DNA from: Gammaproteobacteria bacterium
Lineage (GTDB): Bacteria; Pseudomonadota; Gammaproteobacteria; Steroidobacterales; Steroidobacteraceae
Reading direction: 5' to 3'
Assembly: GCA_025359205.1 (NCBI GenBank)
Contig: JANYHD010000026.1
Span: 62,001-126,000 of the forward strand
DNA length: 64,000 nt
Shown here: in pieces, positions 4,118-41,501 of the stretch
Position numbering within the stretch: the stretch's first letter is position 1
How the letters are laid out: every line of letters begins with the position of its first letter
Position numbers and translations under genes: made by a program
Notes under the pieces: generated by a model
Told to the model about the DNA's origin: nothing
Seen by the model: the letters and a program-made list of their open reading frames with translations, nothing else
The model's database searches: none

Positions 4118-4422
4118 AGGGTAACGTTGTCGGTTGCGACCATTTGCGTCAAGCCCAACCGCCGTTCGGCATCGACCTGCATCGCAACGGCGGACTGATG
4201 CGGGCCGCGACGCAGGGCGAGTGTTTCGAGATCGATATACTGGGCGCTGTTCGCGGCGCCACCTTAGGGCTCGAGGCCTGCGATGACCCACAGGGCCTGC
4301 GGCTACGCAGCTGGCCGTGGCACCCGTGTACCTATATATAGAGTGTGTTAGGTTAATTAAGCTCGATATCTAGTTGATAACTATAAGATTACTATCCAAA
4401 GTGTACCGTTTTGGAGGAGCCT
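4118..4422. promoter_or_regulatory. 305-base divergent intergenic region with AT-rich promoter island
   Basis: This gap separates the minus-strand transporter operon from the plus-strand NCS1 permease. The half next to the transporter is GC-rich and I see no convincing gene in it. Bases about 4330-4400 are sharply AT-rich for this genome and contain CTATATATAG (4332-4341), GTTAATTAA, TTGATA (4374-4379) and TACTAT (4390-4395). These could supply -10/-35 elements or an operator for the permease, but no pair has ideal 16-18 base spacing, so no promoter is fixed. Confidence 0.45.
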
Positions 4423-14944: not shown

Positions 14945-14995
14945 TATTATCATGGCCGTGACATTTAAAAACCGCCGACGAGGATTCAGAGCATG
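14945..14995 (+). promoter_or_regulatory. TATTAT -10-like box and 14-codon upstream reading frame before the carnitine dehydrogenase
   Basis: TATTAT at 14945-14950 is followed at 14952 by an ATG opening a 14-codon frame (MAVTFKNRRRGFRA) whose TGA overlaps the dehydrogenase ATG (ATGA at 14993-14996). If the -10 is real, transcription would begin near 14957, right at the in-frame GTG (14958) of this mini-frame. GAGGATTC 8-15 bases before the main start gives a usable ribosome site. Confidence 0.4.
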
Positions 14996-16483: not shown

Positions 16484-16491
16484 GTCCGGCC

Positions 16492-25419: not shown

Positions 25420-25436
25420 CGCCCGGCAGCCGGCGC

Positions 25437-27041
25437 ATGACGCGCGAGAGCGAGCAGTACGATGCGATCGTCATCGGCGCCGGGCACAACGGCCTGGTGG
25501 CGGCCTGCTACCTGGCGCGCGCCGGCCTTTCGGTGCAGGTACTCGAACGCAACCCGCACATTGGCGGTGCGGCGGTCAGCCGGCAGCTGTACCAGAACTT
25601 CACCTACTCGAACTGCTCCTATGTGTGCAGCCTGCTGCGCCCGGAGATTATGCGCACGCTCGAGCTGCCGCGCTTCGGGCTGCAGATCATCCCCTACGAT
25701 GGCGGCTGCACCATGATGCAAGGTGGCGGGCACCTCGCCCTCTACGACAACCATGATGCGCTGCGCCGAGAGATCGCCCGGCACTCGAAACGCGACGCGG
25801 AGGCCTACGACCGCTTTGCGCGCGACATGATCCGCCAGTGCAAGTTCATCAAACCGCTGCTGATGCGCGAGCCGCCGGACCCGACCTCATTCAAGCCCCG
25901 AGACATCCGCGAACTGCTGTACCTGGGTGGGCACTTCAACCGCCTCGGTGAGGAGCGCATGTACGACACGCTGCGCTTCTGGACCATGAGCATCGCGGAT
26001 TTCCTCGACGAGTACTTCGAGAGCGAGATCGTCAAGGCGCACATGGCGGGCAGCGCCATCATTGGCACCGCGCTCGGGCCGCGATCGCCAGGCACCGCCT
26101 ACGTGCTGCTGCACCATTACATGGGCGACATCGACGACACGGTCGGCGCCTGGGGTTTCGCGCGCGGCGGCATGGGTGCGGTGACGAAGGCGCTTGCGGC
26201 ATCACTCCAGGCGAGCGGCGGGACCATCCGCGCCAGCGCACCGGTGGAGCGGATCCTAGTGCGCAACGGCCGCAGCGTGGGCGTGGCACTCGCCGATGGC
26301 GAGGAGATCAAGGCCCGCCTCGTGCTCTCCAACATGGACGTGAAACGGACCTTTCTAGAGACGGTCGAGGCGAGTGAACTGTCTGGGGATTTTCTCCGCC
26401 GGGTGCGCAACTTCAAGATCCGCGGCTCCTCGGGCAAGCTCAACATCGCGCTCGATGGCCTGCCCACCTTCCCAGCCATTCCGGCCGGTTCGCCCAGCAC
26501 GCGCGGCGACATGCACGTGACCGACACCATCGAGATGATGGAACGGGCCTACGACGACTGGAAGGACGGTGCCTGGTCGCGCGCCCCGTACATTGACATG
26601 CTCATACCCTCGCAGATCGATCCGACCATGGCGCCAGACGGCAAACACTACATGTCGGTATTCGTGCAGTACTGTCCCTACCAGCTCGCCAGCGGCCCCT
26701 GGGACGCGGCCAAGCGCCAGGCCTTCGGCGACACCGTGATCGACACGATTGCGCGCCACAGTCCGGACTTCAAGAGCCTGATCTTGCATGCCGAGGTGCG
26801 TACGCCTTTCGACCTGGAAAACGAAGTAGGCCTTACCGAAGGGAACATCTTCCAGGGCGAGCTGACCTTCGACCAGCTGCTGTTCAACCGGCCCATACCC
26901 GGCTGCGCGCAATACCGCACGCCCTTGCGCGGCCTGTACTTGTGCGGCTCGACCACGCATCCAGGTGGCGGCGTGATGGGAGCCCCGGGCGCGAACGCCG
27001 CGCGCGCCGTATTGCGCGACCTGCGCCTGGCGGCCACGTGA
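25437..27041 (+). CDS. FAD-dependent oxidoreductase, phytoene-desaturase/PYROXD2-like, subunit 1
   Basis: 534 residues. The N-terminal dinucleotide-binding motif VIGAGHNGLVAA (about 12-23) and ERNPHIGGAA (about 38-47) are the CrtI/PYROXD2 signature, and the C-terminal FAD motif LYLCGSTTHPGGGVMGAPG closes the fold. Members oxidise C-C or C-N bonds with FAD. Its stop overlaps the GTG of a second related gene (GTGA), so the two are translated together, and the third gene in the chain is a GcvT-like folate enzyme. I infer an amine-oxidising complex, but no substrate residues are recognisable. Confidence 0.82.
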   Translation: MTRESEQYDAIVIGAGHNGLVAACYLARAGLSVQVLERNPHIGGAAVSRQLYQNFTYSNCSYVCSLLRPEIMRTLELPRFGLQIIPYDGGCTMMQGGGHLALYDNHDALRREIARHSKRDAEAYDRFARDMIRQCKFIKPLLMREPPDPTSFKPRDIRELLYLGGHFNRLGEERMYDTLRFWTMSIADFLDEYFESEIVKAHMAGSAIIGTALGPRSPGTAYVLLHHYMGDIDDTVGAWGFARGGMGAVTKALAASLQASGGTIRASAPVERILVRNGRSVGVALADGEEIKARLVLSNMDVKRTFLETVEASELSGDFLRRVRNFKIRGSSGKLNIALDGLPTFPAIPAGSPSTRGDMHVTDTIEMMERAYDDWKDGAWSRAPYIDMLIPSQIDPTMAPDGKHYMSVFVQYCPYQLASGPWDAAKRQAFGDTVIDTIARHSPDFKSLILHAEVRTPFDLENEVGLTEGNIFQGELTFDQLLFNRPIPGCAQYRTPLRGLYLCGSTTHPGGGVMGAPGANAARAVLRDLRLAAT

Positions 27042-28630
27042 ACGCCGTGGCTACAGCGCGCGCAGCCTATGACTGCATCGTCATTGGTGGTGGTCACAAT
27101 GGCCTGGCCTGCGCGGCCTACCTGGCGCGCGCCGGCCGCTCGGTGCTGGTTCTTGAAGCAGCCGACCGCCTGGGCGGAGCGGCGCTCACGCGCGAGTTCG
27201 CGCCTGGATTTCGCGTGTCGGCTGGCGCGCACCTGCTGCACCAGATGCCCGCGCGCCTGATCGAGGAACTGGCACTGGAGAAGCACGGCTTGCGCTGGGC
27301 CGCGCAATCGCTGCCTACGGCCGCACTAGCTCCGGACGGCGCGGCACTGCTGCTCAGTGGTTCCGGTCCGGAGAGCATCGAAGGACCCGTTGACCGCGAA
27401 GACACCGAAGGCTACGCGCGCTTCATGGCGCTGATGCAGCGCTTTGCCGCCGTGATGAATCCCATGCTGGAAGCGGTGCCGCCACGGCTTGGCACCGAAC
27501 GTTGGGCGGATCGGTTGAGCCTCATGCGCCTCGGTTGGCGGATTCGCAGGCTGGGTAGGCGCGACATGCGCGAGTTGCTGCGCATCGCCGGCATGAACGT
27601 CTACGACCTGCTGAAGGAACACTTCCGCTCACCGCTCCTGCAGGGCGCACTGGGCTTTGACGCGGTCCTCGGCACGAATTTCGGGCCGCGCGCGCCGGGC
27701 ACGGTCATGACTTTGCTTTACCGCCTCGCCGCGCAGCATGGCGCAGGCGCACGTGCGCTCGCGCTGCCTGCCGGTGGGCTCGGCGCCGTAGCCGACGCAC
27801 TGGCAGGGGCCGCCCGTGCCGCGGGTGCCGAAATCCGTCTAACTGCGCCCGTGGCGCGCGTCACGGTCGCCGCTGACCGTGCCTGCGGGGTCACGCTGCA
27901 GTCGGGTGAGTCGATCGCGGCGCGCGCGGTAGTTTCCAGCGCCGATCCGCAGACTTCCTTCCTGGGACTGGTCGGCAGCGAGCACCTGGACACGGCCTTC
28001 GTCCGCCGCGTGCACCACCTGCGCACGCGCGGCCTGGCGGCAAAACTCCACCTGGCGCTCGACGGGCTGCCGAAGTTCAGCGGGCTGCCCGCAGCGGCGC
28101 ATGGCGCGCGGCTGCTCATCGCGCCCTCGCTCGACTATGTCGAGCATGCCTACAACCACAGCAAGTACGGCGCGCATTCGGCCGCGCCGGCGCTCGAAAT
28201 CACCATGCCAACGCTGAGTGATCCAGGCCTGGCGCCCACCGGCAAGCACGTGCTGTCGGCCATCGTGCAATACGCACCATACGAGCTCACTGGCGGATGG
28301 GCAGGGCAGCACGAGGCTTTCGCGCAGCAACTGATCGACCAGCTCGAGCGCCACGCCCCTGGGCTGCGTTCGCTGGTGCGCGAGCGCGAGTTGCTCACGC
28401 CGCCGGACATGGAGCGGGAATTCCGCATCAGCGGCGGCCATTGGCATCATGTGGACCTGGCGCTCGACCAGTTCTATGCCGTGCGCCCGGTGCCCGGCGC
28501 CACCCAGCATCGCACGCCGCTCCCCGGGTTCTACCTGTGCGGAGCGGGTTGCCATCCGGGCGGTGGTGTCATGGGTATCGCCGGACGCAATGCCGCGCGT
28601 CAAATCATCGCAGGGGAGCCCGCTCAATGA
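27038..28630 (+). CDS. FAD-dependent oxidoreductase, phytoene-desaturase/PYROXD2-like, subunit 2
   Basis: 530 residues from the GTG at 27038, which overlaps the previous stop by 4 bases; the ORF upstream of it is the out-of-frame end of gene 1. VIGGGHNGLACAAYLARAGRSVLVLE at the start and LCGAGCHPGGGVMGIAGRNAA at the end mirror the first protein, and the two are homologous along their length, so they arose by duplication and may form a heterodimer. Its stop overlaps the ATG of the GcvT-like gene (ATGA). Electron acceptor could be oxygen or a quinone. Confidence 0.82.
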   Translation: MNAVATARAAYDCIVIGGGHNGLACAAYLARAGRSVLVLEAADRLGGAALTREFAPGFRVSAGAHLLHQMPARLIEELALEKHGLRWAAQSLPTAALAPDGAALLLSGSGPESIEGPVDREDTEGYARFMALMQRFAAVMNPMLEAVPPRLGTERWADRLSLMRLGWRIRRLGRRDMRELLRIAGMNVYDLLKEHFRSPLLQGALGFDAVLGTNFGPRAPGTVMTLLYRLAAQHGAGARALALPAGGLGAVADALAGAARAAGAEIRLTAPVARVTVAADRACGVTLQSGESIAARAVVSSADPQTSFLGLVGSEHLDTAFVRRVHHLRTRGLAAKLHLALDGLPKFSGLPAAAHGARLLIAPSLDYVEHAYNHSKYGAHSAAPALEITMPTLSDPGLAPTGKHVLSAIVQYAPYELTGGWAGQHEAFAQQLIDQLERHAPGLRSLVRERELLTPPDMEREFRISGGHWHHVDLALDQFYAVRPVPGATQHRTPLPGFYLCGAGCHPGGGVMGIAGRNAARQIIAGEPAQ

Positions 28631-29835
28631 GCGATTCCGCCGGCACCGCTCCGCACTACACACGGCCGCTGCTCCCCACGCCGTTCCACGAGCGTGCCCG
28701 GGCGCTCAGCCAGGTCGACAGTTTCGTCCCCTGGGCCGGCTACACCACGGTTGATGTGTTCACAAATGCCGGGCAGGAATACTTCGCCATCCGCAATGCC
28801 TGCTCGGTCTACGACCTCACGCCGATGGTCAAGTACCGCATCGCCGGCCCCGATGCGGGCCGCTACCTTAACCGGCTGGTGACGCGCGACCTGCGCAAGC
28901 TCCGCGTGAACCGCGTCAGCTACTGCGTCTGGTGCAACGACGCCGGCAACATCATCGACGACGGCACCGTGTTCAGGCTGGGCGAAACGGAATATCGCTT
29001 GTGCACCGCCGAGCGGCAACTTGACTGGCTGCTGGATTCAGCCATTGGCTTCGACGTGCAGCTCAGCGAAGTGACCGAGGAGATCGCGGCGCTCGCACTG
29101 CAGGGACCGACCTCGTGCGCCGTGCTGAAGAAACTGGGCGTCACGGGCATCGAACGACTGAAACCCTTCGAGTTTAGCTGCTTTGACGCCACTGGCATGC
29201 GCCTGATGATTTCGCGCACGGGCTTCACCGGTGACCTGGGCTACGAGCTGTGGGCGGATCCGCGGCAGGCGAACCAGCTCTGGGATGCGCTGATGACCGC
29301 CGGACGAAGCCGCGGCATCCGCGCCATCGGTTCGCGCGCGCTCAACATGGCACGCATCGAGGCCGGGTTCCTCATGCCCAATATTGATTTCGTCTCGGCC
29401 GAGGGCACAGTGCGCGTCGGCACCAGCCGCTCGCCCCTGGAACTGGGGCTGGGCTGGTTGGTTGATTTCGATAAGGGTCATTTCACGGGTCGGCGGGCCC
29501 TGCAGGAGCAAATGCGGCAGGGGTTGCAGCGGCAGCTCATAGGCCTGGACATCGCGGGCAACAAACCGGCCGCGAACGCCTTGCTGTACGCCGACCGCAA
29601 GGGCCAAAGGGAAATCGGCAGTGTCACGTCGGCGATGTGGTCGCCAACTTGCAAACGCAACATTGCGCTTGCTATGGTCGATGCGCCGCACTTTGCGATG
29701 GGGACGACCATGTGGGCGGAGGTATATCTGAGCCGCGAATTGGTCTGGGAACGCCGCATGTGCAAGGCGCAGGTGGTCGACAAGCCTTTCTTTGCACCAG
29801 AACGACGGCGCGTGACGCCACCGGGAGACTTCTAG
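28627..29835 (+). CDS. Aminomethyltransferase (GcvT/DmdA-like) family, folate-dependent
   Basis: 402 residues starting at the ATG in an ATGA overlap with the FAD subunit 2 stop. It has GcvT folate-binding features: NDAGNIIDDGTVFRL (about 101-115) with the conserved Asp pair, RTGFTGDLGYELW, and the C-terminal barrel (GLGWLVDFDKGHFTGRRAL). GcvT-like proteins move a one-carbon unit from an N- or S-methyl donor to tetrahydrofolate. Dimethylglycine and sarcosine dehydrogenases carry this domain fused to a flavin part; here the flavin parts are separate genes just upstream. Likely role: capture formaldehyde or methyl groups from N-demethylation. Confidence 0.85.
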   Translation: MSDSAGTAPHYTRPLLPTPFHERARALSQVDSFVPWAGYTTVDVFTNAGQEYFAIRNACSVYDLTPMVKYRIAGPDAGRYLNRLVTRDLRKLRVNRVSYCVWCNDAGNIIDDGTVFRLGETEYRLCTAERQLDWLLDSAIGFDVQLSEVTEEIAALALQGPTSCAVLKKLGVTGIERLKPFEFSCFDATGMRLMISRTGFTGDLGYELWADPRQANQLWDALMTAGRSRGIRAIGSRALNMARIEAGFLMPNIDFVSAEGTVRVGTSRSPLELGLGWLVDFDKGHFTGRRALQEQMRQGLQRQLIGLDIAGNKPAANALLYADRKGQREIGSVTSAMWSPTCKRNIALAMVDAPHFAMGTTMWAEVYLSRELVWERRMCKAQVVDKPFFAPERRRVTPPGDF

Positions 29836-30981
29836 GTGGGCCAGAGCGATCCCAAGCAACTCGCTGATCGCCCTTGGCTCGATCCCAACGCGCAGCCGCA
29901 GGTCGTCATCGACGGCGTTTGCAAGACCTATCCAGGTGTGACCGCCGTCGACAACGTGGGCCTGCGCATTTTCAAAGGTGAAATGTTCGCGCTGGTGGGA
30001 TCCTCGGGCTGCGGCAAGACCACGCTGTTGCGCATGCTGGCGGGCTTTACCCAACCCACCGCTGGCCAGATCACCATCGACGGCGCATTGATGAACGAGG
30101 TGCCGCCGCACCAGCGTCCCGTCAATATGATGTTCCAGTCCTACGCGCTGTTCCCACACATGACGGTCGAGAACAACGTCGGCTACGGACTGCGGCGCAT
30201 GGCGCTGGAGCCGGCCGTGCGCCAGCAGCGCATCCAGGCCGCACTCGACATGGTGCAGCTGGGCGCGCTGGGCCAACGCAAGCCGCACCAGCTCTCCGGT
30301 GGCCAGCGACAGCGCGTGGCGCTGGCGCGCGCGCTGATCCGTCGCCCCAAGGTGCTGCTGCTCGACGAGCCGCTGAGCGCACTCGACAAGAAACTGCGCG
30401 AGCAGACGCAGTTCGAGCTGATGAACATTCAGTACAAGGTCGGCACCACGTTCATCTTCGTGACGCACGACCAGGACGAAGCCATGGCACTCGCCACGCG
30501 CATTGCGGTGATGGATCACGGCAAAGTCATTCAGGTGGGCACGCCAGCCGAGATCTACGAATTCCCGCAGACGCGCTTCATCGCCGATTTCATCGGCACG
30601 ACCAATTTCTTCGAGGGCACGGTGACCGGTGTCGAGTCCGGCCAGATCCGCGTGCACAGCCCGGAGGCCGGCGCCGAGTTGCTGGTCGATGATCGCGGCC
30701 AGGTCCGCGTTGGGCAGCAGGTCTGGGTAGCCTTGCGGCCAGAGAAAATCCGCCTCAGCAAGGAGCCACCAGCCGGCGAGCGCATCAACCGCCTCAAGGG
30801 GGTGGTGGCTGAGCTCGGCTACCTGGGCAACCGATCCACGTACCGGATACGCACGCCCTCGGGCAAGATCCTGACGGTGCTCGGCAAAAATGAGCAACGC
30901 ACCTCAGAGTGGTCGATTGACTGGAGCGACGAAGTCTTCCTGAGCTGGAATGCCAACGCAGCGATCGTGCTGCAATCGTAG
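29836..30981 (+). CDS. Polyamine-type ABC transporter, ATP-binding subunit (PotA/PotG-like)
   Basis: 381 residues from a GTG directly abutting the GcvT-like stop. Walker A GSSGCGKTT (55-63), signature LSGGQRQR (153-160) and Walker B VLLLDEPLSALD (173-184) are followed by the long C-terminal TOBE/MOP domain (about 285-380) typical of PotA/PotG. The SBP and the two permeases of the same transporter type are encoded 6-10 kb downstream in other units (36900-37994, 38036-39780), so this is probably their motor. Substrate may be a polyamine, or a betaine-like amine given the operon. Confidence 0.88.
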   Translation: MGQSDPKQLADRPWLDPNAQPQVVIDGVCKTYPGVTAVDNVGLRIFKGEMFALVGSSGCGKTTLLRMLAGFTQPTAGQITIDGALMNEVPPHQRPVNMMFQSYALFPHMTVENNVGYGLRRMALEPAVRQQRIQAALDMVQLGALGQRKPHQLSGGQRQRVALARALIRRPKVLLLDEPLSALDKKLREQTQFELMNIQYKVGTTFIFVTHDQDEAMALATRIAVMDHGKVIQVGTPAEIYEFPQTRFIADFIGTTNFFEGTVTGVESGQIRVHSPEAGAELLVDDRGQVRVGQQVWVALRPEKIRLSKEPPAGERINRLKGVVAELGYLGNRSTYRIRTPSGKILTVLGKNEQRTSEWSIDWSDEVFLSWNANAAIVLQS

Positions 30982-30998
30982 TTGCAGGGGAGTGGATC

Positions 30999-33611
30999 AT
31001 GAACATGCATAGCCTGGTGGCCCGCAGCGGACGTTTCCTCTATGTCGTGGCCACCGGATCGTTCCTGGCACTGGGCTGGAATGCGACCGCCGGCGCGCAG
31101 ACCGCGGCGCAGAGCGCGGCCAAGCCGGCAAGCGGCGAACTGGAAGAGATTGTGGTCACCGCCACCCGTCGCTCCGAGGCGCTGAGCAAAGTGCCGATCA
31201 GCGTCACGGCGATCAACCAGGAATCCCTGGACGCGCGCGGCATGAAGGACTTCCAGGACATCGCCCGCTTCACACCCGGCGTGACCATTGACAGCTCGAT
31301 CACCAATGCGATCTCGATCCGCGGCATATCCTCATCCGGCGGCGCTGGCACGACGGGCATCTATCTCGACGACACGCCAATCCAGATGCGCAGCGTCGGC
31401 TTCAATCCCGACGACACGCTGCCGAAGACCTTCGACCTGGACCGCGTCGAGGTGTTGCGGGGCCCACAGGGCACGCTGTTCGGCGCTGGGTCGGAAGGTG
31501 GCACGGTGCGCTACATCCTCACGGCGCCGAAGCTCCACGGCTCGAGCAGCTACGTGCGCAGCGAGCTGTCGACGACCACCGGTGGCCAGCCCAGCTATGA
31601 ATTGGGCGTGGCGCATGGAACCGCGCTCATCGACGGCACGCTGGGCATTCGCATGAGCGCTTGGTACCGCAACGATGGCGGCTGGATCGACCGTGTCGAC
31701 CCGACCACACGGGCCGTCACCGAACGCAGCGCCAATCATGCCGATGCCTACATGGCGCGGCTCGCGGCCGTGTGGCAACCGGCATCGAATTTCACCGTAA
31801 CCCCCAGCATCGTCTACCAGAAGAGCAGCCGGCACGATGAGTCGACCTACTGGCCGGCCTATTCGAATCCCAGCGCCGGCCAGTTCAACAATGCCTCTCC
31901 CGAACGCCTGCCGGTGCCCGACAGTTATTACCTCCCGGCAGTCAAGCTGGAGTGGAACCTGGCGCATAGCCAGGTGATCTCGAATACCTCGTACTACTCG
32001 CGCAATGAAGAGACGGCCTATCTCGGTACGGTCTACGACCTGAACTACTACCAGGCCCTGGGCTGGCCGACCAATCCCATCAACGATCCGAACTATGTCG
32101 GTAATGCGCCCGCCATTGCGGGTTGCGGCCCGACTTCAGTGGCCACCGTGCCGCCCTGCGACTGGTATCCGCTGATTGACGCCAACGGCCTGCACCTGCC
32201 GCCCGGGTTCACGGACTTCCAGACGCCCAACAAGATCACCAACCAGCAGCGCAGCTGGTCGGAGGAGGTGCGCTGGCAGTCCACGGACGACAGTGCGCGC
32301 TGGCGCTGGACCGTCGGTGCGTTCTGGCAGCAGGCCAAGGAGCTCAGTATCGAGAATCTCGAAGACAAGCAAATCTACGAGTTCTTCCAGTACCTGTACG
32401 GGGTGAGCCCCGCGGACGTCTTCTTCGGCGATTTTTATCACTGCCCCGGCCACCCCGGCACTGGAGCTGACGCTGCAGCGGTAGTGCCGGCCTGCAGCAT
32501 CTACTACAACAACAACAAGACGACCGACCGTCAATTCGCCGGTTTTGGCGAACTGAGCTACGCACTGACCGACAAGCTACGGGTCACATTCGGTGAGCGC
32601 ATTGCCCGGCTCTCGTTCTCGCTCGATCACTACGCCGACGGGTTCGAGAATTACGGACCGTCCGCGGCGAGCGCCTCGAGCAGCGAGACCTCCAATACGC
32701 CAAAACTCAGCGTCGCCTATCAGGCAGACCCCAACAATCTCTACTACGCCACTTATGCCAAGGGATTCCGCGCGGGCGGCGGCAATGCGCCACTGCCGGA
32801 TTACTGCAACGTGGACCTGGACAACACCGGTTACCCGAATGGCGCGCCGCTGACCTACAAGTCCGATTCGACCCAGAGTTTCGAGCTTGGCTCCAAGAAT
32901 GCGTTCGGCCGCAACTTCCGCATTGCCACCAGCGTCTACTACATACGCTGGAACGATATCCAGCAGAATGTCTACGTGCCAGGCGCCTGTGGACTGCAAT
33001 TCACCGACAACCTGGGCGCAGCCGAGGCCAAGGGCTTCGACCTGCAAGCCGAGTTTGCCGCGGGTCCGATGAAGTTCGAGCTGGCTACGGGCTACACCGA
33101 GGCGCGCTACACCAAGGACAGCACCCTGCGCTCGCCGGACTGCCCATCCGGATCGGGGATCCCCTGCCTGCCGCTCGCGCGCTCCAGCGATGCCATTTCG
33201 GGCCAGGCATCAATCAACCTCAACCCCGGCACCAATGCCCCATGGACGGGCTCGCTCGGGGCCGAGTACGGCTTCAAGGCCGGAAACCGCCCGGCCTATG
33301 TGCGCTTTGACTACCAGTTCCAGAGCCGCAACAACTGGCTCTCCAACTTGCAGGACCCGGGCACTTCGCAATTCAACGCCGACTCCTACGCCATAGCCGC
33401 GAACGACTACGCGCAGCTGCGTGGCGGCGTGGCGCTCGGCAGCTGGAATGTCTCCGCGTTCATCGACAACCTGTTCGACTCACATACGGTGATCAACTAC
33501 ATGAAGGGGCAGGCCGACTCCTTCAATCCGGCCGGGCCGCCGCACGAACAGGAGAATCAGTTCACCTTCAGGCCGCGCACCTATGGCCTGACGGCCACGC
33601 TGCATCTCTAG
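30999..33611 (+). CDS. TonB-dependent outer-membrane receptor
   Basis: 870 residues with an N-terminal signal region, then ELEEIVVTATRR as the TonB box and plug start, the plug domain (about 60-165, with VEVLRGPQGTLFGAGSEGGTVRY) and a 22-strand barrel to the C-terminus ending YGLTATLHL. GGGGAG upstream of the ATG is the ribosome site. It has the look of the large FecA/SuxA/cirA-like receptors found in oligotrophic Gammaproteobacteria and sphingomonads. Placed between a transporter ATPase and a Rieske oxygenase, it probably brings in the compound this operon degrades, or an iron/cobalamin-type ligand; neither is shown by sequence. Confidence 0.9.
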   Translation: MNMHSLVARSGRFLYVVATGSFLALGWNATAGAQTAAQSAAKPASGELEEIVVTATRRSEALSKVPISVTAINQESLDARGMKDFQDIARFTPGVTIDSSITNAISIRGISSSGGAGTTGIYLDDTPIQMRSVGFNPDDTLPKTFDLDRVEVLRGPQGTLFGAGSEGGTVRYILTAPKLHGSSSYVRSELSTTTGGQPSYELGVAHGTALIDGTLGIRMSAWYRNDGGWIDRVDPTTRAVTERSANHADAYMARLAAVWQPASNFTVTPSIVYQKSSRHDESTYWPAYSNPSAGQFNNASPERLPVPDSYYLPAVKLEWNLAHSQVISNTSYYSRNEETAYLGTVYDLNYYQALGWPTNPINDPNYVGNAPAIAGCGPTSVATVPPCDWYPLIDANGLHLPPGFTDFQTPNKITNQQRSWSEEVRWQSTDDSARWRWTVGAFWQQAKELSIENLEDKQIYEFFQYLYGVSPADVFFGDFYHCPGHPGTGADAAAVVPACSIYYNNNKTTDRQFAGFGELSYALTDKLRVTFGERIARLSFSLDHYADGFENYGPSAASASSSETSNTPKLSVAYQADPNNLYYATYAKGFRAGGGNAPLPDYCNVDLDNTGYPNGAPLTYKSDSTQSFELGSKNAFGRNFRIATSVYYIRWNDIQQNVYVPGACGLQFTDNLGAAEAKGFDLQAEFAAGPMKFELATGYTEARYTKDSTLRSPDCPSGSGIPCLPLARSSDAISGQASINLNPGTNAPWTGSLGAEYGFKAGNRPAYVRFDYQFQSRNNWLSNLQDPGTSQFNADSYAIAANDYAQLRGGVALGSWNVSAFIDNLFDSHTVINYMKGQADSFNPAGPPHEQENQFTFRPRTYGLTATLHL

Positions 33612-33623: not shown

Positions 33624-34853
33624 GTGCTCGCAGGAACAGGCTTGCCGCCGCGCGCGGGCTATTCGCTGCCGCGCGAGTTCTATACGGATCCTGCGATCTT
33701 CGAGCAGGACATGGAGCGCATGCTGCTGCGCCACTGGTTCTGTGCCGGCCACGTCAGCAGCCTGCCGAACGCAGGCGACTTCTTCCTGGTGGAGCTCGGC
33801 GTCGAGTCCGTGATCGTGTGCAGGGCCGCCGACGGGGCCGTGCACGCGCTGCTGAATGTCTGCCGCCATCGGGGCTCACGCGTTTGTGTTACACGTTCGG
33901 GTACTGCACAGGGCGGCGGCTTTACCTGCCCATACCACGCCTGGTCTTACGGGCTCGATGGACGGTTGCGCGCGGCGCGCGAAATGCCCGCATCCTTCAG
34001 GCGCGAGGAGGCGGGCCTCAAGCCACTGCAGCTGCGCGTGCTCGAAGGGCTCATCTTCATCAGCTTTGCCGCCACACCGCCCGCTTTGGACGATGCCGCG
34101 CGCGCGCTGGCCAATGCGGCCGGCACGCATGGCTGGGCCAACGCCAGGGTGGCGCACCAGGCCCGTTTCGAGATACACGCCAACTGGAAGCTGGCGCTTG
34201 AGAACTACATGGAATGCTATCACTGCCAGCCCGCCCATCCGGAATTCGCGCGCCGTCACGCCAATGCCCGTCCCTGGACACAGGCGGCCGAGCTCGAGCG
34301 CTCAGCACACGAGCGCAGCAGCGCGCTTGGGATCCGCATCGACAATGTTGACCACTACGCGCTCAAGGCGCGCGTCGGCCAGGAATCCGTGTCCGTGCTG
34401 CGCAGCGCGCTGCTGCCCGGGCATCTCACCGGCTCGCCCGATGGCCAGCAGGTCGCGCCGCTGATGGGCGCCTTCCCGCAACACGACGGCAATTCGACCT
34501 ACTTCGACATCGGCCCGGTCAGCGATTTCCTCGCCTACGCGGATCATGGCGTGATCTATCGCTTCATTCCGCGTGCCGTCGATCGGACCGAGATGGAAGT
34601 GATCTGGCTCGTGCACGCTGATGCGGTGGCGGGGCGTGACTACGATCCCGCGCGCCTCACCTGGCTGTGGCAGGTCACGAGCGTCGAAGACAAGCTGATC
34701 ATCGAACGCAACCAGGAAGGCGTGAACTCTCGCTACTACGAGCCGGGCCCGTACTCCCTCCAGGAGGACTACACCAGCCGCTTCGTGGCCTGGTACCTCG
34801 CTGAGCTCGGCCCAACCTCGCCCGCTCAGCGCGCCGCGGCCGCGGCGCGGTAG
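33624..34853 (+). CDS. Rieske non-heme iron oxygenase, alpha subunit (GbcA/CntA-like), copy 2
   Basis: 409 residues from a GTG 12 bases after the receptor stop. Rieske ligands: C80/H82 (NVCRHRGSR) and C102/H105 (TCPYHAWSY). Iron ligands: H200 and H205 in ECYHCQPAHPEF. The bridging residue is E193 (LENY), the Glu seen in glycine betaine and carnitine monooxygenases instead of the usual Asp. The preferred reaction is therefore N-demethylation of a trimethylammonium acid. No reductase subunit gene is adjacent. Its final 28 bases overlap the convergent amidohydrolase gene. Confidence 0.88.
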   Translation: MLAGTGLPPRAGYSLPREFYTDPAIFEQDMERMLLRHWFCAGHVSSLPNAGDFFLVELGVESVIVCRAADGAVHALLNVCRHRGSRVCVTRSGTAQGGGFTCPYHAWSYGLDGRLRAAREMPASFRREEAGLKPLQLRVLEGLIFISFAATPPALDDAARALANAAGTHGWANARVAHQARFEIHANWKLALENYMECYHCQPAHPEFARRHANARPWTQAAELERSAHERSSALGIRIDNVDHYALKARVGQESVSVLRSALLPGHLTGSPDGQQVAPLMGAFPQHDGNSTYFDIGPVSDFLAYADHGVIYRFIPRAVDRTEMEVIWLVHADAVAGRDYDPARLTWLWQVTSVEDKLIIERNQEGVNSRYYEPGPYSLQEDYTSRFVAWYLAELGPTSPAQRAAAAAR

Positions 34854-36841
34854 ACTCGCTGGCCGCGGAACCAGGTCTCCAGCACCTGTGTGCGGGCAAT
34901 GTCTTCGGTTTTGCCGCTCGCGGCGAGCGCCAGCAGGTCGCGATCCACGATGATGAAATCTGCCGATTTGCCCAATTCCAGCGAGCCGAATTCGCGCTCG
35001 CGGCCCAGGAACCGCGCACCCTCGATCGTGTAGGCGTCAAGCGCCTCGCGCAGGCTCAGCGCCTGGTGCGCGTTGAGTGCGCCATCACCGGGCATGTGCC
35101 GCAGCACGGCCACGGCAATGTTCACGAACGGTTGCGGGTCGCGCGTGCTCACCGGCGCATCGGACCCGCCTACTACGATGCCACCCGCATTCCTCACGGC
35201 GCGGACAGGATAGCTATTCTCGTAGTAATAGCTGCCCGGCACGATGCGGCTCTCGGCACTGTTGCCGCTCATGTGCTGCACGAAGGGCACGACCGTCAAG
35301 TCGTAGTCGGTGTTCGAGGTGGCCCAGCTGAAGGTGAAGGCCACGTACAAGTGGTCGCGGCCGAGCCGCACGACGTCTTCCGGCTGCACGAACTGCAGGT
35401 GCGCGAAACTGTCGTGCGTGGCGCTATTGCCGTCCGCGGCGCGCGCGGCTTCGATCGCATCGAGCGCGGTGCGGGCGGCGCGATCGCCGATCACGTGGAT
35501 GTGCAGGTTGAACCCGGCCAGGTGCATGCGCCGCGCCATCTCGAAAATGACCTCGCGATCGTCCTTGAGCTGGCCCATCGACAGCTGGCATTGCGCGGGA
35601 AGGAAACCGTGGACTGAGCTGAAGTCGGCCACGTCCCGGTAGCGTTCGGCATGCTCGCGCACCTCGCGACACAGCGCCGAGTCCGTGTCCACGTAGCCGG
35701 TCACGCTCGGGTGACCGGTTGCGTCGATGCTGAAGATCGGTTGCAGGTAGGGCTGCAGCATGGCCGCGTTGCCCAGTGTCGGTGGCCGGGCGAAGGGATC
35801 ACCTTCGACCACACCGTCAGCGTAAATCTTGACGAAATCGGCGCGCAGGAGCGGATTGGTCGCGTAGCGGGCACGCATGGCCAGGGCACGGGCCACCATG
35901 CCGGCATAGTCGATGTGCCCGGTGGCATCGCGGTTCTCATCGGGGTTGAAATACTGCGCCAGCGTGACATGCGCGGTCAGCTGGCCGGAGGCCAGTAGTT
36001 TTTCATAGACCGGGTTGGCTTCGGGCGCCGCCGCCGCGTCGAGCACGGCCGTGATGCCCGCGCGGTTGAGCGCGTGCGGCAGTCGCTCGGGATGCACCAG
36101 CGCGATCTGCAGCTCGTTGTAGTTCATGTAGTCGCGGTTGACGAGGTACTGCGCTTCCTCGTTCAACTCGCCTGCGGGCTCGCCCTGCGCATCGACGCCG
36201 ATCAGCAATCGGTACTTGGAAAAGTCGCTGGCGAGCGTGGCGCGGCTGAGCCCGACCCTATGGCCCTGGGCATTGACCGCCAGCGCCATGGCGGCGCTGT
36301 TGAACGCGGCGTGATGGCCATCATCGCCCATGAGGTAGACGGGATTGTCCGGCGCGGCCCTGTCCAGCGCGGCGCGCAGCGTGGGGTATTCCGCATCGGG
36401 CGTGTTGCCGTACGCGATGCTCCAGCCCTGGACATGCAACCAACGGCCGGCCGGCGGGTGAAAATGCGCGATGCAGGCCCGCACGAAGGCCGATAGCTGG
36501 CGCAGTGACCTGGGGGCGCTTAGTAGGTCGCATTCGTCGCCGCTCACGAGATCGACGGGGTGGATATGCGAGTCAACGAGCCCCGGCAACACCAGGCGGC
36601 CGCCGGCATCAACCCGTCGTGTGTGCGGCCCCAGGTAGCGCTTCAGGCCCGCCTCGTCGCCGACGTACACAATCTGACCGTTGCTCGCAGCCAGCGCCCC
36701 AGCCAGTGCCGGTCCTGCGGCCGTATAGATGCGGGCATGGGTGAGCACGAGGTCAGCGGGTGCAGCGCCGGCCGGCAGCGCCACCGCCGTCGCCTGCAGG
36801 CCAATGGCTACCGACCAAAATCGCCTGGCCAGATTTCCCAA
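34826..36841 (-). CDS. Amidohydrolase (YtcJ-like, Amidohydro_3), exported
   Basis: About 671 residues. I place the start at the TTG at 36841: AAGGAG lies 6 bases upstream and residues that follow (LARRFWSVAIGLQATAVALPAGAA) form a signal peptide; the longer frame to 36883 lacks a ribosome site. Metal-binding HxH is in DSHIHPVD, and the HIHVIGD and GSDAPVS segments follow the YtcJ pattern of large zinc/iron hydrolases acting on amide or N-acyl substrates. Its 3' end overlaps the Rieske gene. Role: hydrolysis of a peri- or extracytoplasmic amide, possibly feeding the amine pathway. Confidence 0.82.
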   Translation of the reverse strand: MGNLARRFWSVAIGLQATAVALPAGAAPADLVLTHARIYTAAGPALAGALAASNGQIVYVGDEAGLKRYLGPHTRRVDAGGRLVLPGLVDSHIHPVDLVSGDECDLLSAPRSLRQLSAFVRACIAHFHPPAGRWLHVQGWSIAYGNTPDAEYPTLRAALDRAAPDNPVYLMGDDGHHAAFNSAAMALAVNAQGHRVGLSRATLASDFSKYRLLIGVDAQGEPAGELNEEAQYLVNRDYMNYNELQIALVHPERLPHALNRAGITAVLDAAAAPEANPVYEKLLASGQLTAHVTLAQYFNPDENRDATGHIDYAGMVARALAMRARYATNPLLRADFVKIYADGVVEGDPFARPPTLGNAAMLQPYLQPIFSIDATGHPSVTGYVDTDSALCREVREHAERYRDVADFSSVHGFLPAQCQLSMGQLKDDREVIFEMARRMHLAGFNLHIHVIGDRAARTALDAIEAARAADGNSATHDSFAHLQFVQPEDVVRLGRDHLYVAFTFSWATSNTDYDLTVVPFVQHMSGNSAESRIVPGSYYYENSYPVRAVRNAGGIVVGGSDAPVSTRDPQPFVNIAVAVLRHMPGDGALNAHQALSLREALDAYTIEGARFLGREREFGSLELGKSADFIIVDRDLLALAASGKTEDIARTQVLETWFRGQRVYRAAAAAR

Positions 36842-36887
36842 TATCAGCTCCTTGATTCCAGAACCCGTGCACTCGCCGGCCAACCAT

Positions 36888-36893
36888 TATAAT
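36888..36893 (+). promoter_or_regulatory. -10 consensus TATAAT, 6 bases before the potF-like start
   Basis: TATAAT at 36888-36893 is followed by GAGCGC and then the ATG at 36900. A start site about 7 bases downstream of the -10 would coincide with the ATG, implying a leaderless transcript. It lies in the 58-base gap shared with the divergent amidohydrolase. Confidence 0.5.
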
Positions 36894-36899
36894 GAGCGC

Positions 36900-37994
36900 A
36901 TGATGCGGAAGTGCCACGCGGGCCTGCTTGCGCTCCTGCTCGCCACGAGCGGCGGCGGGTCCGTCGCGGCGGACAAGCGGCTGTTCATCTACAACTGGTC
37001 CGACTTCATCGGCACCGGCACCATCGAACGCTTCGAGAAGCTCACCGGCATCAAAGTGGTGTACGACACCTACGATGCAGAGGAGACCGCCGAGGCGCGG
37101 CTGCTGGCCGGAGAATCCGGCTACGACGTGGTCAGCGTCTCCTCGAACTTCTCCAGCCGCCAGATCCGGGCCGGCGTCTACATCCCGCTCGACAAGGCAA
37201 AGCTGCCCAACTGGAAGAACCTGGATCCGCACTTCCTGGCCAATCTGCAGGACAGCGACCCGGGCAATCGCTATGGCGTGCCTTACATGCAGGCGATCAA
37301 CGGCTTCGCCTACAACATCGAGCAGATCCGCGCGCGCATGCGCGATGCCCCAGTCGGGAGCCTGGACATGATCTTCAAGCCGGAGATCATAAAGCGCTTC
37401 GCCGACTGCGGCGTGACTTTCCTCGACTCACCGCAGGATGTGCTGCAACTGGCGTTGCGCTACCTGCACCTGGACCCGAACAGCACGCGCCGCGAGGACT
37501 ACGAGGCCGCCGAGCGGCTGTTGCTCAAGGTGCGGCCCTACATCCGTAACTTCGATTCGGTCGAGTACATGAACGGGCTCGCCAACAAAGAAGTGTGTAT
37601 CGCGATGTCGTGGTCAGCCGACTACGAAACGGTGATGGCGCGTGCACGCGCCGCCGGAGCGCCGGTGCACCTGGCGTTCACGGTGCCTGCCGAGGGTGCC
37701 AACCTGACGCTGTCCTCATTCCTGATTCCCGTCGGCGCGCCACATCCGGAAGCGGCCTATGCGTTTCTCAATTTCCTCATGGACCCGCAAGTCATCGCCG
37801 GCATCACCAACGAAATCTACTACGGCAACGCGAACCTCGCGGCCAATGCCTATGTACGGCCGGACATACTGAACGACCCCATCCTGTACCCGACGCCCGA
37901 TATCGAGGCGCGCCTCTACCCCAACGTGGAAGCGAGCATCGCGCTGGAACGTATCCGCACGCGGATCTGGACACGCATCAAGACCGGCGAGTAA
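36900..37994 (+). CDS. Polyamine-type ABC transporter, periplasmic binding protein (PotF/PotD-like)
   Basis: 364 residues (ATG at 36900, or the adjacent one at 36903). A signal peptide (residues 1-24, LLALLLATSGGGSVAA) precedes DKRLFIYNWSDFIGTGTIERFE, the classic PotF/PotD opening, and AMSWSADYE with YGNANLAA later in the chain lines the ligand site. The shared ancestry with putrescine receptors is clear, though acidic ligand residues need alignment to decide specificity. It is monocistronic as far as seen; permeases follow on the opposite strand and the ATPase is 6 kb upstream. Confidence 0.88.
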   Translation: MMRKCHAGLLALLLATSGGGSVAADKRLFIYNWSDFIGTGTIERFEKLTGIKVVYDTYDAEETAEARLLAGESGYDVVSVSSNFSSRQIRAGVYIPLDKAKLPNWKNLDPHFLANLQDSDPGNRYGVPYMQAINGFAYNIEQIRARMRDAPVGSLDMIFKPEIIKRFADCGVTFLDSPQDVLQLALRYLHLDPNSTRREDYEAAERLLLKVRPYIRNFDSVEYMNGLANKEVCIAMSWSADYETVMARARAAGAPVHLAFTVPAEGANLTLSSFLIPVGAPHPEAAYAFLNFLMDPQVIAGITNEIYYGNANLAANAYVRPDILNDPILYPTPDIEARLYPNVEASIALERIRTRIWTRIKTGE

Positions 37995-38035: not shown

Positions 38036-38866
38036 CTACTGCGCGGCGAGCTGCAGGTCGCGCAGGCGCTGCTGGTCGGCGCGGCGCATCAGCACCCCGG
38101 CGATGAGCACGCCGGCGCCGACCGTGGCGATGATCAGCGTGGCGAGCGCGTTGATGTCCGGGCTGACGCCCAGCTTCACCTTCGAGAAGATCACCATCGG
38201 CAACGTGCTGGCGCCCGGACCCGAAACGAAACTCGAAATCACCAGGTCATCGAGCGAGAGCGTGAAGCTCAGCAGCCAGCCGCTGGCCAGCGCCGGGGCG
38301 ATGATTGGCAGGGTCGTATCGAGGAAGGCGCGCACCGGCCCGGATCCCAGGTCCATGGCGGCCTCCTCCAGCGAACGATCCGCGGTGCCGAGGCGCGACT
38401 GCACCGTGACGGTCACGTAGGCGGTGCAGAAGGCGACGTGCGCGAGCACAATGGTCAGGAAGCCGCGATGTGGCCAGCCGAACAGGTGCAGCATCGAAAT
38501 CAGCAGCAACAGCTGCGTGATGCCCGTGATGATCTCGGGCATCACCAGCGGGGCGTTGACCATGGCCGTTAGCATCAGGCGGCCGCGGAATTTCTTGAAG
38601 CGCACCAGCGCGATCGCGGCCAGCGTGCCGAGCACCATGGCCGCGGTTGCCGCGACGAAGCCAATGCGCAATGACAGCCAGGCCGCGGTGATCAGCTGAT
38701 CGTTGCGCACAAGTTCCCGGTACCAGTGCGTGGAGAAGCCGCCCCAGATGCCCACCAGCGGCGAGGCGTTGAAGGAATAGCCGATCATCACCAGCATCGG
38801 GATATAGAGCAACGCCACCCCAATCGCGAGCACGCTCATCAGCATGGTCGGCAGCCGCTCGTTCAT
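38036..38866 (-). CDS. Polyamine-type ABC transporter permease (PotI/PotC-like)
   Basis: 276-residue permease with six hydrophobic helices and the EAA loop EEAAMDLGSGPVRAF. N-terminal MLMSVLAIGVALLYIPML and the SFTLSLDDLVIS segment near the end are PotC/PotI features. Its start overlaps the stop of the PotH-like gene by 4 bases, so the pair is translated as a unit. Together they form the membrane channel for the binding protein encoded convergently at 36900-37994. Confidence 0.9.
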   Translation of the reverse strand: MNERLPTMLMSVLAIGVALLYIPMLVMIGYSFNASPLVGIWGGFSTHWYRELVRNDQLITAAWLSLRIGFVAATAAMVLGTLAAIALVRFKKFRGRLMLTAMVNAPLVMPEIITGITQLLLLISMLHLFGWPHRGFLTIVLAHVAFCTAYVTVTVQSRLGTADRSLEEAAMDLGSGPVRAFLDTTLPIIAPALASGWLLSFTLSLDDLVISSFVSGPGASTLPMVIFSKVKLGVSPDINALATLIIATVGAGVLIAGVLMRRADQQRLRDLQLAAQ

Positions 38867-39780
38867 GCGTGCGCCTCCAGTTCCTTGCTGTGATAGTGCT
38901 GGTAGATGGCGATCGGTCCGACCAGCAGCACCAGGAAGGCCACGGCAACCGCCGAGGCCACCGGCCAGTCACGGTTGCCGAAGAACTCGTCCCACAGCAC
39001 GCGGCCGATCATCAGGTTGTCGGCGCCGCCCAGGAGCGTAGGAATCACGAACTCGCCTATGGCCGGGATGAACACCAGCATCGAGCCGGCGATGACACCG
39101 GGCATGGACAGGGGCAGGGTTACGTCGAGGAAGGCGCGCCACGGCGGACTGCCGAGGTCCGCCGAGGCCTCCAGCAAGGTGCGATCGAGTTTTTCCAGGG
39201 TCGCAAACAGTGGCAGCACCATGAAGGGCAGGTATGAGTAAATGATGCCCAGGTACACCGCCGTAGTGGTGTGCATGAGCTTCAGCGGCTCGCGAATCAG
39301 TCCCAGCCACAACAGCGCCTGATTCAGCAGCCCGTTCTCGCGAATGATGCCCTCGAGCGCGTAGACCCGCAGCAGGAAGGAGGTCCAGAAGGGCAGGATG
39401 ATGATCAGCAGCAGGATGCTCTGCGTGCTCCGCGAGGTGCGCGAAATGCCATAGGCCATCGGGTAGCCGATCAGCAGACAGATGAGCGTGGAAAAGAACG
39501 CGGTTTTCAGGGAATATAAGTAAGAGAGGGCATACACTTTGTCGGTGACGAGATAGCGGTAGTTGTCCAGGTGCGCGGCGACGTGCAGGTGATGATGAGC
39601 GTCCATCGAGAACACATCGGTGTACGGCGGCACGCGAATGGCGGTCTGGGCAAAACTGATCGTCAGGGCGAAGCCGAACGGAATCAGGAAGAAGACCAGC
39701 AGGAACAGCAGCGGCGGAGCAATGATCAGCCAGCGCCGGTGGCGCGCAAGCTGGAATTTCGCCAGGACACCGGGACCCAT
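38863..39780 (-). CDS. Polyamine-type ABC transporter permease (PotH/PotB-like)
   Basis: 305-residue permease: cytoplasmic N-terminus, first helix LLFLLVFFLIPFGFALTISF, then the BPD_transp_1 core with EAA loop EASADLGSPPWRAF. It is the first gene of the permease pair, starting only 41 bases from the divergent TetR-Rieske fusion gene. That arrangement makes this operon the most likely target of the unusual regulator. Confidence 0.9.
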   Translation of the reverse strand: MGPGVLAKFQLARHRRWLIIAPPLLFLLVFFLIPFGFALTISFAQTAIRVPPYTDVFSMDAHHHLHVAAHLDNYRYLVTDKVYALSYLYSLKTAFFSTLICLLIGYPMAYGISRTSRSTQSILLLIIILPFWTSFLLRVYALEGIIRENGLLNQALLWLGLIREPLKLMHTTTAVYLGIIYSYLPFMVLPLFATLEKLDRTLLEASADLGSPPWRAFLDVTLPLSMPGVIAGSMLVFIPAIGEFVIPTLLGGADNLMIGRVLWDEFFGNRDWPVASAVAVAFLVLLVGPIAIYQHYHSKELEAHA

Positions 39781-39821
39781 CTGATGCGTGACTATGCCAA
39801 AAGCGCCGCGGGAGCAAGGCG
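39781..39821. promoter_or_regulatory. 41-base divergent gap between potH-like and the TetR-Rieske gene
   Basis: Both promoters must fit in or overlap this short gap. GGGAG (39810-39814) provides the ribosome site for the TTG start at 39822, with 7 bases of spacing. A regulator bound here would control both directions. I see no clear palindrome of operator length. Confidence 0.4.
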
Positions 39822-41501
39822 TTGACTACAGCGCGCGCTGGCCGGCAACGCGCGCCGGCCGCGGCCCCGCGCCACCGCCTGTCCGCCACCCGCCAGCGGC
39901 AACGGCTCATCGACGCCTGCATATCCGCGCTGCATATCTACGGACCGTCGCGCACGACGGTGGCGAAGGTCGTGGCGATCGCCAAGCTTTCCCCGGGCAT
40001 CGTGCGATTCTACTTCAAGTCCAAGGCGGCCATGCTGGTCGCCTCGCTGCGCTTTCTGTCGACCGAATTTGACCAGCTGGTGCTCGACCCGGTGGCTGAA
40101 CTACGCCATTCGCCCGTGCCGGCCCTGCAGAAGATGGTCGAACTGTACCTCGACCCGGCCGTCGCCAGTACGCGCAAGATCTCCGTCTGGTACGCCTTCT
40201 GGGGCGAGGCGACCGCGCGGCAGGAATACCAGGATATCTGCGGCCAGAAAGACGATCGCTTCGCCAACATGGTGCTGGAACTGATCGGGCGGATGATAGA
40301 ACAGAGTGGCCTCAGGCATCTCGATCCCGACGCCGTTTCCCTGGGCCTGATTGGCGTGCTGGAGATGCTCTGGCAGGGCTTCGCGTTCCAGGAAGACGAG
40401 GACATCGACCGCGCGGCCGCGCGTGGCCGCGCCATGGCCTACCTCGCGTCGGTGTTTCCAGGGCATTTTCCGGCGCTGGCGACTGCACTGGCGACGGACG
40501 GCGCGCGAACACAGGCCGCCGCCCAGCCCCAGGCCCAGGCATGGGAGAACCTGCCTGCGGAGCGCCGTCATGCGCTCGAGCTGGCGCAGTGTTTCGCCTC
40601 GGCCTGGCAATTGGCCGGTCGCGCTGACGACCTGCGCGTGCGCGGCGAATACCTCACGATCGAACTCGCCACCTGCCGCGCGCTCATCGTCCACGACGGC
40701 GCTCAGCTGCGGGCCTTTGGCAACAGCTGTCCGCACCAGCCGCACACGCTGGTGCTGGCCCGCCACGGCCAGCTTCCCGGAGCCATCGATTGCCCACTGC
40801 ACCGGCTCAGTTTTGGCCTTGACGGCCACTCGGCCGATGCCGCGGACAGCACCAATCTGGTGGCCATGTCACTCAACGTTGTCGCCGGCCTCGTGTATGT
40901 CAACCCGCAGTCCCAGGTCCGGCCAGCCGCGAGCGAATTCCCAGCCGCGAACGATGCTGCGCAGTCTGCAGGCTCCGGCGAGATGCCCGCGTTCACCGAG
41001 ATTGAGGTGGCGGCCGACTGGAAGACCAGCGTCGAGCAGTTACTCCTGCATCGCCTGCCCGAGCGCGCAGGGCAGGGCGGCGCGCAGTCCTTCGGCCCAC
41101 CGACGCTCGAAACCATCGCGGGCCAACGGCAGCTGCGCTGGCAGGCAACGCCTGCGGCCGGCGAACACCTGCCCTGGCGACGCGCCTATATGTGGCCGAA
41201 TGTCCTGCTGGAATGGCGCACCGACGGCATGAGCGCGATACAGATATTGCCGGCAGCGGCGGGCCGTAGCCGCTGGCAATGCTTTGACTATGGCTACACT
41301 TGTGGCGACGAGCGTGCGAGCACGCTGGCTATTCTCGCTCGCCGCATCGGTCTCGAAGCATTGCGCTTCGATATCGAACTCGCCTCATCGACGCAGCGAG
41401 GCCTGGCCGCTCCCGGCTATAGCGCCGCGCGCCGGGCGAACGTAGCGCAGGCGGTCGCGTTTTTCAGGCAGCTGCTGACCGCGGTCGCAGCGACCCCATA
41501 A
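39822..41501 (+). CDS. Fused regulator: TetR/BetI-like DNA-binding domain plus Rieske-oxygenase-like sensor domain
   Basis: 559 residues in one uninterrupted frame from a TTG (GGGAG 7 bases upstream). Residues 20-220 are a complete TetR protein: HTH TTVAKVVAIAKLSPGIVRFYF (45-65), then a BetI-like helical domain (KISVWYAFWGEA, about 119-130). An Ala/Gln-rich linker (about 221-242) leads to a Rieske-alpha-subunit-like region: 2Fe-2S ligands C303/H305 and C324/H327 are kept, W400-K401 and E405 match the NWKL..EN segment of GbcA/CntA, but the two iron histidines of the YHxxxxHP motif are replaced (L and G). A late QRGL-GY segment (525-533) shows the catalytic fold is otherwise complete. I infer a non-catalytic ligand- or redox-sensing domain. 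Confidence 0.85.
   Translation: MTTARAGRQRAPAAAPRHRLSATRQRQRLIDACISALHIYGPSRTTVAKVVAIAKLSPGIVRFYFKSKAAMLVASLRFLSTEFDQLVLDPVAELRHSPVPALQKMVELYLDPAVASTRKISVWYAFWGEATARQEYQDICGQKDDRFANMVLELIGRMIEQSGLRHLDPDAVSLGLIGVLEMLWQGFAFQEDEDIDRAAARGRAMAYLASVFPGHFPALATALATDGARTQAAAQPQAQAWENLPAERRHALELAQCFASAWQLAGRADDLRVRGEYLTIELATCRALIVHDGAQLRAFGNSCPHQPHTLVLARHGQLPGAIDCPLHRLSFGLDGHSADAADSTNLVAMSLNVVAGLVYVNPQSQVRPAASEFPAANDAAQSAGSGEMPAFTEIEVAADWKTSVEQLLLHRLPERAGQGGAQSFGPPTLETIAGQRQLRWQATPAAGEHLPWRRAYMWPNVLLEWRTDGMSAIQILPAAAGRSRWQCFDYGYTCGDERASTLAILARRIGLEALRFDIELASSTQRGLAAPGYSAARRANVAQAVAFFRQLLTAVAATP

Follow-up and report, generated by a model that had tools for sequence, protein, structure and literature searches.

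The stretch analysed here, called the window throughout, is the whole of a 64,000-nucleotide piece of a Steroidobacteraceae genome (contig JANYHD010000026.1, positions 62,001 to 126,000), and the subject of this work is a gene within it that joins a TetR-type DNA-binding protein to a Rieske oxygenase alpha-subunit-like half. A preliminary description, drawn from the letters alone, had proposed that both parts lie in one open frame; this was confirmed, as a single frame runs from 39822 to 41501 and Pfam domains of both kinds are found in it. Its features are given below, with residue numbers, here and later, referring to the window fusion protein unless another protein is named.

39822–41501, plus strand: TetR–Rieske fusion gene, a putative regulator of 559 amino acids; TTG start, single open frame, conserved in relatives
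39885–40457, plus strand: TetR DNA-binding domain and BetI-type helical domain, residues 22–212
40491–40544, plus strand: Ala/Gln-rich linker, about residues 224–241, from sequence composition
40605–40841, plus strand: Rieske [2Fe-2S]-like domain, residues 262–340; Pfam Rieske 2.5e-9
40728–40745, plus strand: loop 1, C303-P-H305-Q-P-H308, from residue counts across fusions
40791–40802, plus strand: loop 2, C324-P-L-H327, from residue counts across fusions
40989–41432, plus strand: degenerate catalytic (mononuclear iron) domain, residues 390–537; both iron histidines lost, D517 kept

TTG is the sole in-frame start codon ahead of the TetR motif, and the related genes at loci L002, L003 and L004 start with TTG, GTG and TTG at the same 27-codon distance. 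The N-terminal part has the TetR helix-turn-helix (HTH) followed by an all-helical C-terminal domain, as in the TetR family (Pfam TetR_C_6, BetI type, 2e-13, residues 101–212; TetR_N 2e-4, 21.4 bits against a cut-off of 24). The second half has the Rieske and catalytic domains of a group V alpha subunit (Pfam Ring_hydroxyl_A 2.3e-5, 24.8 bits against a cut-off of 24.9), and its best profile match in the Protein Data Bank (PDB) is CntA, at 2.7e-43. Structure prediction recovered the oxygenase fold for this half, with CntA and Stc2 as joint best in the fold comparison of the predicted model. The predicted local distance difference test score (pLDDT) was 92–98 over residues 261–340, the Rieske block, and below 50 at residues 224–232 of the linker, whose Ala/Gln-rich character agrees with the preliminary description and whose sequence is variable among relatives.

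Intact and degenerate fusions differ at the metal sites

A set of 140 loci gave 113 fused frames, of which 70 were left when frames with a TetR score below 100 and identical copies had been dropped. L081 and L092 do not align at the first Rieske loop and were left out of the counts; the remaining 68 comprise 12 intact and 56 degenerate fusions, with the window protein among the latter. All 12 intact fusions (L020, L021, L102, L105–L110 and L135–L137, with Inquilinus limosus included) have retained the two iron histidines together with the Asp, the bridging Glu and the cluster ligands; by these residues they are apparently repressors joined to a working oxygenase. At 90% identity the 12 collapsed into 8 groups, and the Rieske halves of the 56 degenerate fusions still formed 56.

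None of the 56 degenerate fusions has both iron histidines; a His is aligned with the first of them in L083 alone, and 23 copies have a gap where the second would be. In the window protein L412 stands at the position of CntA His208 and a Gly in the His213 column, with W400, K401 and E405 kept, just as the preliminary description had stated when it reported the loss of both histidines and a surviving WK..E frame. It had overlooked D517, at the Asp ligand position. The window protein is without a 2-His-1-carboxylate iron site by loss of both histidines and retains the position of the carboxylate. Such an Asp occurs in 11 of 53 degenerate fusions; at the bridging position 35 of the 53 have Glu, 6 have Asp and 12 have another residue, among them the Leu of the window. 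It is conceivable that the C-terminal half of the window protein still oxidises a substrate through a different metal site, as D517 and the full ligand set of the 12 other fusions would allow; the absence of the paired histidines from every degenerate copy, together with bridging residues that are neither Glu nor Asp, makes this very improbable.

The preliminary description had also assigned C303, H305, C324 and H327 as [2Fe-2S] ligands. The window does have this full CxH...CxxH set, but it is not the one that the family conserves. Among the degenerate fusions the first and second Cys (C303 and C324) are found in 56/56 and the last His (H327) in 54/56, with Asp in L064 and L080, whereas the canonical Rieske His at +2 (H305) is found in 8/56. 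A His at +5 (H308) occurs in all 56 and in 11 of the 12 intact fusions. In stand-alone Rieske oxygenases from the loci and the window the +2 His is present in 76/76 rows and the +5 His in 0/76 (a 77th row, L049 (10934), lacks the loop and represents the latter part of a broken fusion). In a further set, in which some genes were entered twice and the L177 row is mis-registered, the +5 His was seen in 6/6 fused and 0/36 stand-alone rows. The fully invariant columns of the Rieske half in 52 degenerate fusions (leaving out L049, L077, L078, L081, L092 and L010, each without part of this half) are C303, H308, C324, L346, A398 and W400; H327 is nearly so (50/52 versus 8/52 for H305), and the presence of the +2 His requires at least 7 changes on the TetR tree. 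Invariant C303, H308 and C324 beside a scattered H305 therefore fit a site that may no longer require the canonical ligand. Such a site could hold a [2Fe-2S] cluster in which the His has moved, or else one metal ion, for instance zinc.

As reported in PMC7948474, Tyr203 of CntA holds the trimethylammonium group, and enzymes with Asn at that position belong to another clade. Tyr occupies the position in 74/76 stand-alone rows and 11/12 intact fusions, and Trp in 42/53 degenerate fusions, which suggests that an aromatic residue for a cation may still be wanted. The trimethylammonium pocket of the preliminary description fared unevenly: kinship with quaternary-ammonium oxygenases and a fitting neighbourhood (see below) are supported, but the residue in the window is Leu407, which places the protein outside clade Va as marked by an aromatic at this position.

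The fusion recurs in two groups of bacteria

A first search at an E value of 0.001 gave some match in 73 of 98 genomes; in 17 of the 73, the window's own included, the match ran in an open frame from TetR well into the Rieske part, and in G004 the fusion was present in two pieces. A survey of the family followed the same domain order, counting a match as fused when it began at query position 54 or before and ended at 318 or beyond. Among the matches listed, 57 of the 217 family genomes, again including the window's own, carry a fused match; five of these are of the intact type (G001, G022, G206, G207 and G209), and in G184 a TAG stop lies inside the fusion. In a named collection (the best 80 of 144 matching loci) the carriers are mostly metagenome-assembled genomes (MAGs) titled Gammaproteobacteria, Proteobacteria or Steroidobacteraceae, plus some Inquilinus limosus. 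No fusion except the window's own was found in 398 genomes across the phylum at 1e-70; the order of Inquilinus had it in 5 of 17 genomes at 1e-100, and none of 8 matches in plasmid records spanned more than 61% of the query. On these counts the fusion family is narrow but well rooted.

Since most named carriers are MAGs, and the match is in two pieces in both G004 and G053, a sequencing or assembly artefact joining two genes has to be considered. The same join is found in those 57 family genomes, in MAGs from numerous projects and in Inquilinus limosus records that carry no MAG label (L105, L106), which rules this out and leaves it a negligible probability. The broken copies comprise a frame change with an unread base (L009/L096, from G004), the stop mentioned above (L049/L133, from G184) and a gene split by contig ends (G053). 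Two records titled Acidobacteria and Paceibacterota (L100 and L104) hold a TetR of the fusion family and are possibly misbinned contigs.

Selection and history

Ratios of nonsynonymous to synonymous substitution (dN/dS, NG86) were 0.17–0.47 for the Rieske half in 17 close pairs and 0.05–0.17 for the TetR half in the 16 of these with a valid value. By these estimates the Rieske half is under purifying selection, weaker than that on the TetR half. These values bear on a serious rival to a sensory role for the oxygenase half, namely that the BetI-like TetR pocket does the sensing and that the rest is a tolerated, slowly vanishing leftover of a bifunctional enzyme-repressor. Long open frames, dN/dS well below 1 and the retention of C303, H308, C324 and (with two exceptions) H327 in 56 distinct degenerate copies argue against it, as a vestige should not hold four putative metal-site residues while dropping a fifth. 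We regard this explanation as unlikely, although it has to be taken seriously.

In a quick TetR tree, 73 TetR domains from degenerate fusions and unfused neighbours fall in one starred group. The unfused L093–L095 are nested inside it, which speaks for secondary loss of the Rieske half. In the Rieske tree 54 degenerate rows lie on one side of a branch (support 100) and 11 intact ones on another (92), with L109 apart and paired with a stand-alone enzyme; the fusions without L109 share one side of a branch at a Shimodaira–Hasegawa-like approximate likelihood ratio (SH-aLRT) of only 88, in a quick tree whose root was not inferred. A single origin of all fusions was rejected for the Rieske half by the approximately unbiased (AU) test (p 0.0007, 66 fused versus 28 other rows), so at least two independent fusion events probably took place. 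The intact form would have preceded the degenerate one.

L109 holds at 2890–5019 a second TetR–Rieske fusion, apparently independent, with intact ligands and Ser at +5. In G001 (L173, G001:C34, near 1757–1765) an unfused tetR runs into the beginning of a Rieske gene, with ATGA shared between them; this pair, whose enzyme likewise has Ser at +5, is a plausible pre-fusion state. L017 (the gene of L097) and L018 (that of L088) encode a TetR with a tail of about 100 residues without a Rieske match, likely a remnant.

Gene neighbourhood

The fusion gene has the following features near it in the window.

39781–39821: control region between the fusion gene and the divergent potH, 41 bp, with the block GATGCGYGACTATGCCA from 39783
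38863–39780, minus strand: PotH-like permease, divergent, likely target; NCBIfam PotH 1.3e-112, below cut-off
38036–38866, minus strand: PotI-like permease; NCBIfam PotI 1.2e-103, below cut-off
36729–37994, plus strand: PotF-like solute-binding protein, true start probably further in; NCBIfam PotF 9.2e-113 from residue 62, below cut-off
33624–34853, plus strand: RieskeB, GbcA-like oxygenase, intact ligands; NCBIfam GbcA 2.6e-85, below cut-off
24070–33611, plus strand: aminotransferase, two FAD oxidoreductases, GcvT-like protein, PotG and what we take, from the sequence alone, to be a TonB-type receptor
22602–23765, minus strand: RieskeA oxygenase, intact ligands, Tyr at the CntA 203 position
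14993–17112, plus strand: carnitine 3-dehydrogenase-like gene (NCBIfam 572.7 bits, just under the cut-off of 592) and a separate BetI-like TetR

The 41 bases to a divergent PotH-like gene and the two intact Rieske oxygenases nearby had both been described correctly. RieskeA is 16 kb from the fusion, which is followed instead by a gene that, from its sequence, is presumably of the peptidyl-prolyl isomerase type. The block at 39783 is kept in L031, L033 and L096, and with one mismatch in L032. Taken together, this neighbourhood fits the use of quaternary amines. The class III aminotransferase (24070–25419) is closest to guanitoxin GntE, at 432.8 bits against a cut-off of 525, in a setting that looks catabolic, and the BetI-like TetR (16492–17112, BetI 1.7e-20, below cut-off) lies directly behind the carnitine dehydrogenase-like gene.

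The neighbourhood was compared across 71 loci (L031–L101), 57 of them fused. Of the 55 fused loci whose upstream sequence reaches 1.2 kb or more, 50 have a divergent PotH beside the fusion (the filter misses it in L047 and L065). Of the 42 that extend 6 kb or more downstream, 40 have a convergent RieskeA within 6 kb, the two without it, L031 and L033, being close kin of the window. Behind RieskeA, in loci that are long enough, come an aminotransferase, two FAD oxidoreductases, a GcvT-like gene, PotG and often a TonB-type gene; L056, for example, departs from this pattern. Relatives of these genes accompany most intact fusions, as in L102, L105, L106, L141, L143 and L144, and little of the kind is seen in L142 and L109. 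Among L102 and L105–L110 only L110 has a second RieskeA-like gene nearby; in the four g9 genomes the intact fusion is itself what matches RieskeA best, and in G001 and Inquilinus a stand-alone gene elsewhere is the better match.

With RieskeA as a standing neighbour, the dead half might act as a decoy subunit in mixed trimers with the intact enzyme, the regulator reading enzyme amount or state and not a free ligand. CntA is reported to form trimers whose subunits are arranged head to tail and pass electrons to one another (PMC7948474). The Rieske halves branch apart from RieskeA, and this and the frequent gap at the second iron His render such an arrangement improbable.

In L084, L085, L087, L089 and L091 a TetR gene without a Rieske half is inverted to read with RieskeA and PotH. 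An element TTGTGC-N2-GATAAA (one mismatch allowed) occurs in 20 of the loci L031–L110, and its 20 hits there are all beside the potH start, whichever way the TetR gene is turned; a single stray hit falls in the window, near 12304.

Proposed mechanism

We lean, with modest confidence, towards the fusion being a repressor of quaternary-amine uptake and oxidation. Its sensor would be a Rieske oxygenase taken out of catalytic service, with its metal site rearranged, and the protein would descend from a bifunctional enzyme-repressor. The dead oxygenase half is probably the sensor of this switch because many related bacteria keep the fusion beside genes apparently for carnitine-like compounds. As a one-component repressor, the protein would bind the short divergent control region by its BetI-like TetR domain and repress the nearby genes for taking up and oxidising a quaternary (trimethyl)ammonium compound. 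The C-terminal half would be a catalytically dead group V (CntA/Stc2-like) oxygenase retained as sensor, keeping the fold and a putative metal site of C303, H308, C324 and H327, with the old ligand H305 optional in the family. Binding of the signal, or a change at the metal site, may then alter the TetR dimer and release the DNA. In the ancestor the oxygenase may still have been active while joined to the repressor that controlled it, and Inquilinus and a few genomes of the window's family would still show this condition. The sensor-regulator interpretation of the preliminary description is thus partly supported.

Several observations weigh against this enzyme-turned-sensor model. CntA also has a His at +5, a trait therefore not unique to the fusions, and H308 is not necessarily new as a ligand. 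The window protein is atypical of the degenerate fusions, as it keeps H305 and has Leu at both the pi-cation and the bridging Glu positions; its nearest clade (L001–L004) shares the former Leu, which counts against a retained cation aromatic. No clear operator dyad was seen by eye in 39781–39821, despite conserved blocks at the potH promoter, and the BetI-like TetR domain may itself hold the ligand. Evolution is faster in the Rieske half, whose mean column conservation is 0.51 versus 0.79 for the TetR half; the fused or unfused state requires at least 7 changes on the quick TetR tree, and some lineages have lost or shrunk the Rieske half and kept the TetR gene; in 16 of the 217 family genomes (among the matches listed) the match covers the TetR part or little more, with query ends at 203–278. 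The proposed enzyme-turned-sensor model has the right anatomy and context.

More tentatively, and as a possibility that we would not yet call probable, the family may represent a new class of transcription factor: one with a retired Rieske oxygenase as sensor, the textbook Rieske His replaced by a His three residues on (Cx4H...Cx2H), an undescribed metal centre, and a lineage that began as a bifunctional enzyme-repressor, became a pure regulator and ended as a plain TetR, each stage being still represented today. The living stages, that is, separate overlapping tetR–rieske genes, the active-looking fusion, the dead fusion and the short-tailed remnant, would make an enzyme-to-sensor path testable stepwise. 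The shift in the conserved His lends itself to a sharp, inexpensive test of whether a Rieske centre can accept a displaced ligand, and biosensors for carnitine-like compounds might be developed from this family.

Comparison with known systems

The fusion architecture is real, conserved and new as far as the literature was searched: in agreement with the preliminary description, neither a TetR–Rieske oxygenase fusion nor a regulator of this kind was found among the papers listed from that literature, mostly open-access titles and abstracts. A TetR and an oxygenase that form a pair of separate proteins, Rv3160c and Rv3161c, appear in the title of PMC7810876. CntA, the group V oxygenase subunit of carnitine monooxygenase (PDB 6y8j, 6y9c, 6zgp), is an active enzyme without a TetR domain, and the window protein lacks equivalents of its His208, His213, Glu205 and Tyr203. 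Stc2, stachydrine demethylase (PDB 3vca, 4qup), is likewise an active stand-alone enzyme, with Asn at the 203 position. BetI, the choline-binding TetR repressor, is the best NCBIfam match of the fusion (TIGR03384, 5.1e-19), but at 68.7 bits against an equivalog cut-off of 201.3, and its model of 189 positions has no Rieske part.

Metal or redox sensing, if present, would be a trait shared with the [2Fe-2S] regulators IscR and NsrR. SoxR and RsrR are also of this kind, and the folds and ligand sets of all four differ from those of the fusion; to our knowledge none of these [2Fe-2S] regulators is of the TetR type or derived from a Rieske oxygenase. Bifunctional enzyme-repressors of the PutA type exist, and the intact fusions would share their way of working, although the DNA-binding and enzyme domains differ. 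A similar design is that of MocR, GabR and EnuR, which join a GntR HTH to an aminotransferase-like domain (PMC6677901, PMC8739950): enzyme-derived sensors are thus known, and a Rieske oxygenase in that role was not found in the literature searched. The fusion resembles these proteins in combining a DNA-binding domain with an enzyme-derived one, but the domains are unrelated, a winged helix and a pyridoxal phosphate fold type I there, and TetR and Rieske by Pfam here.
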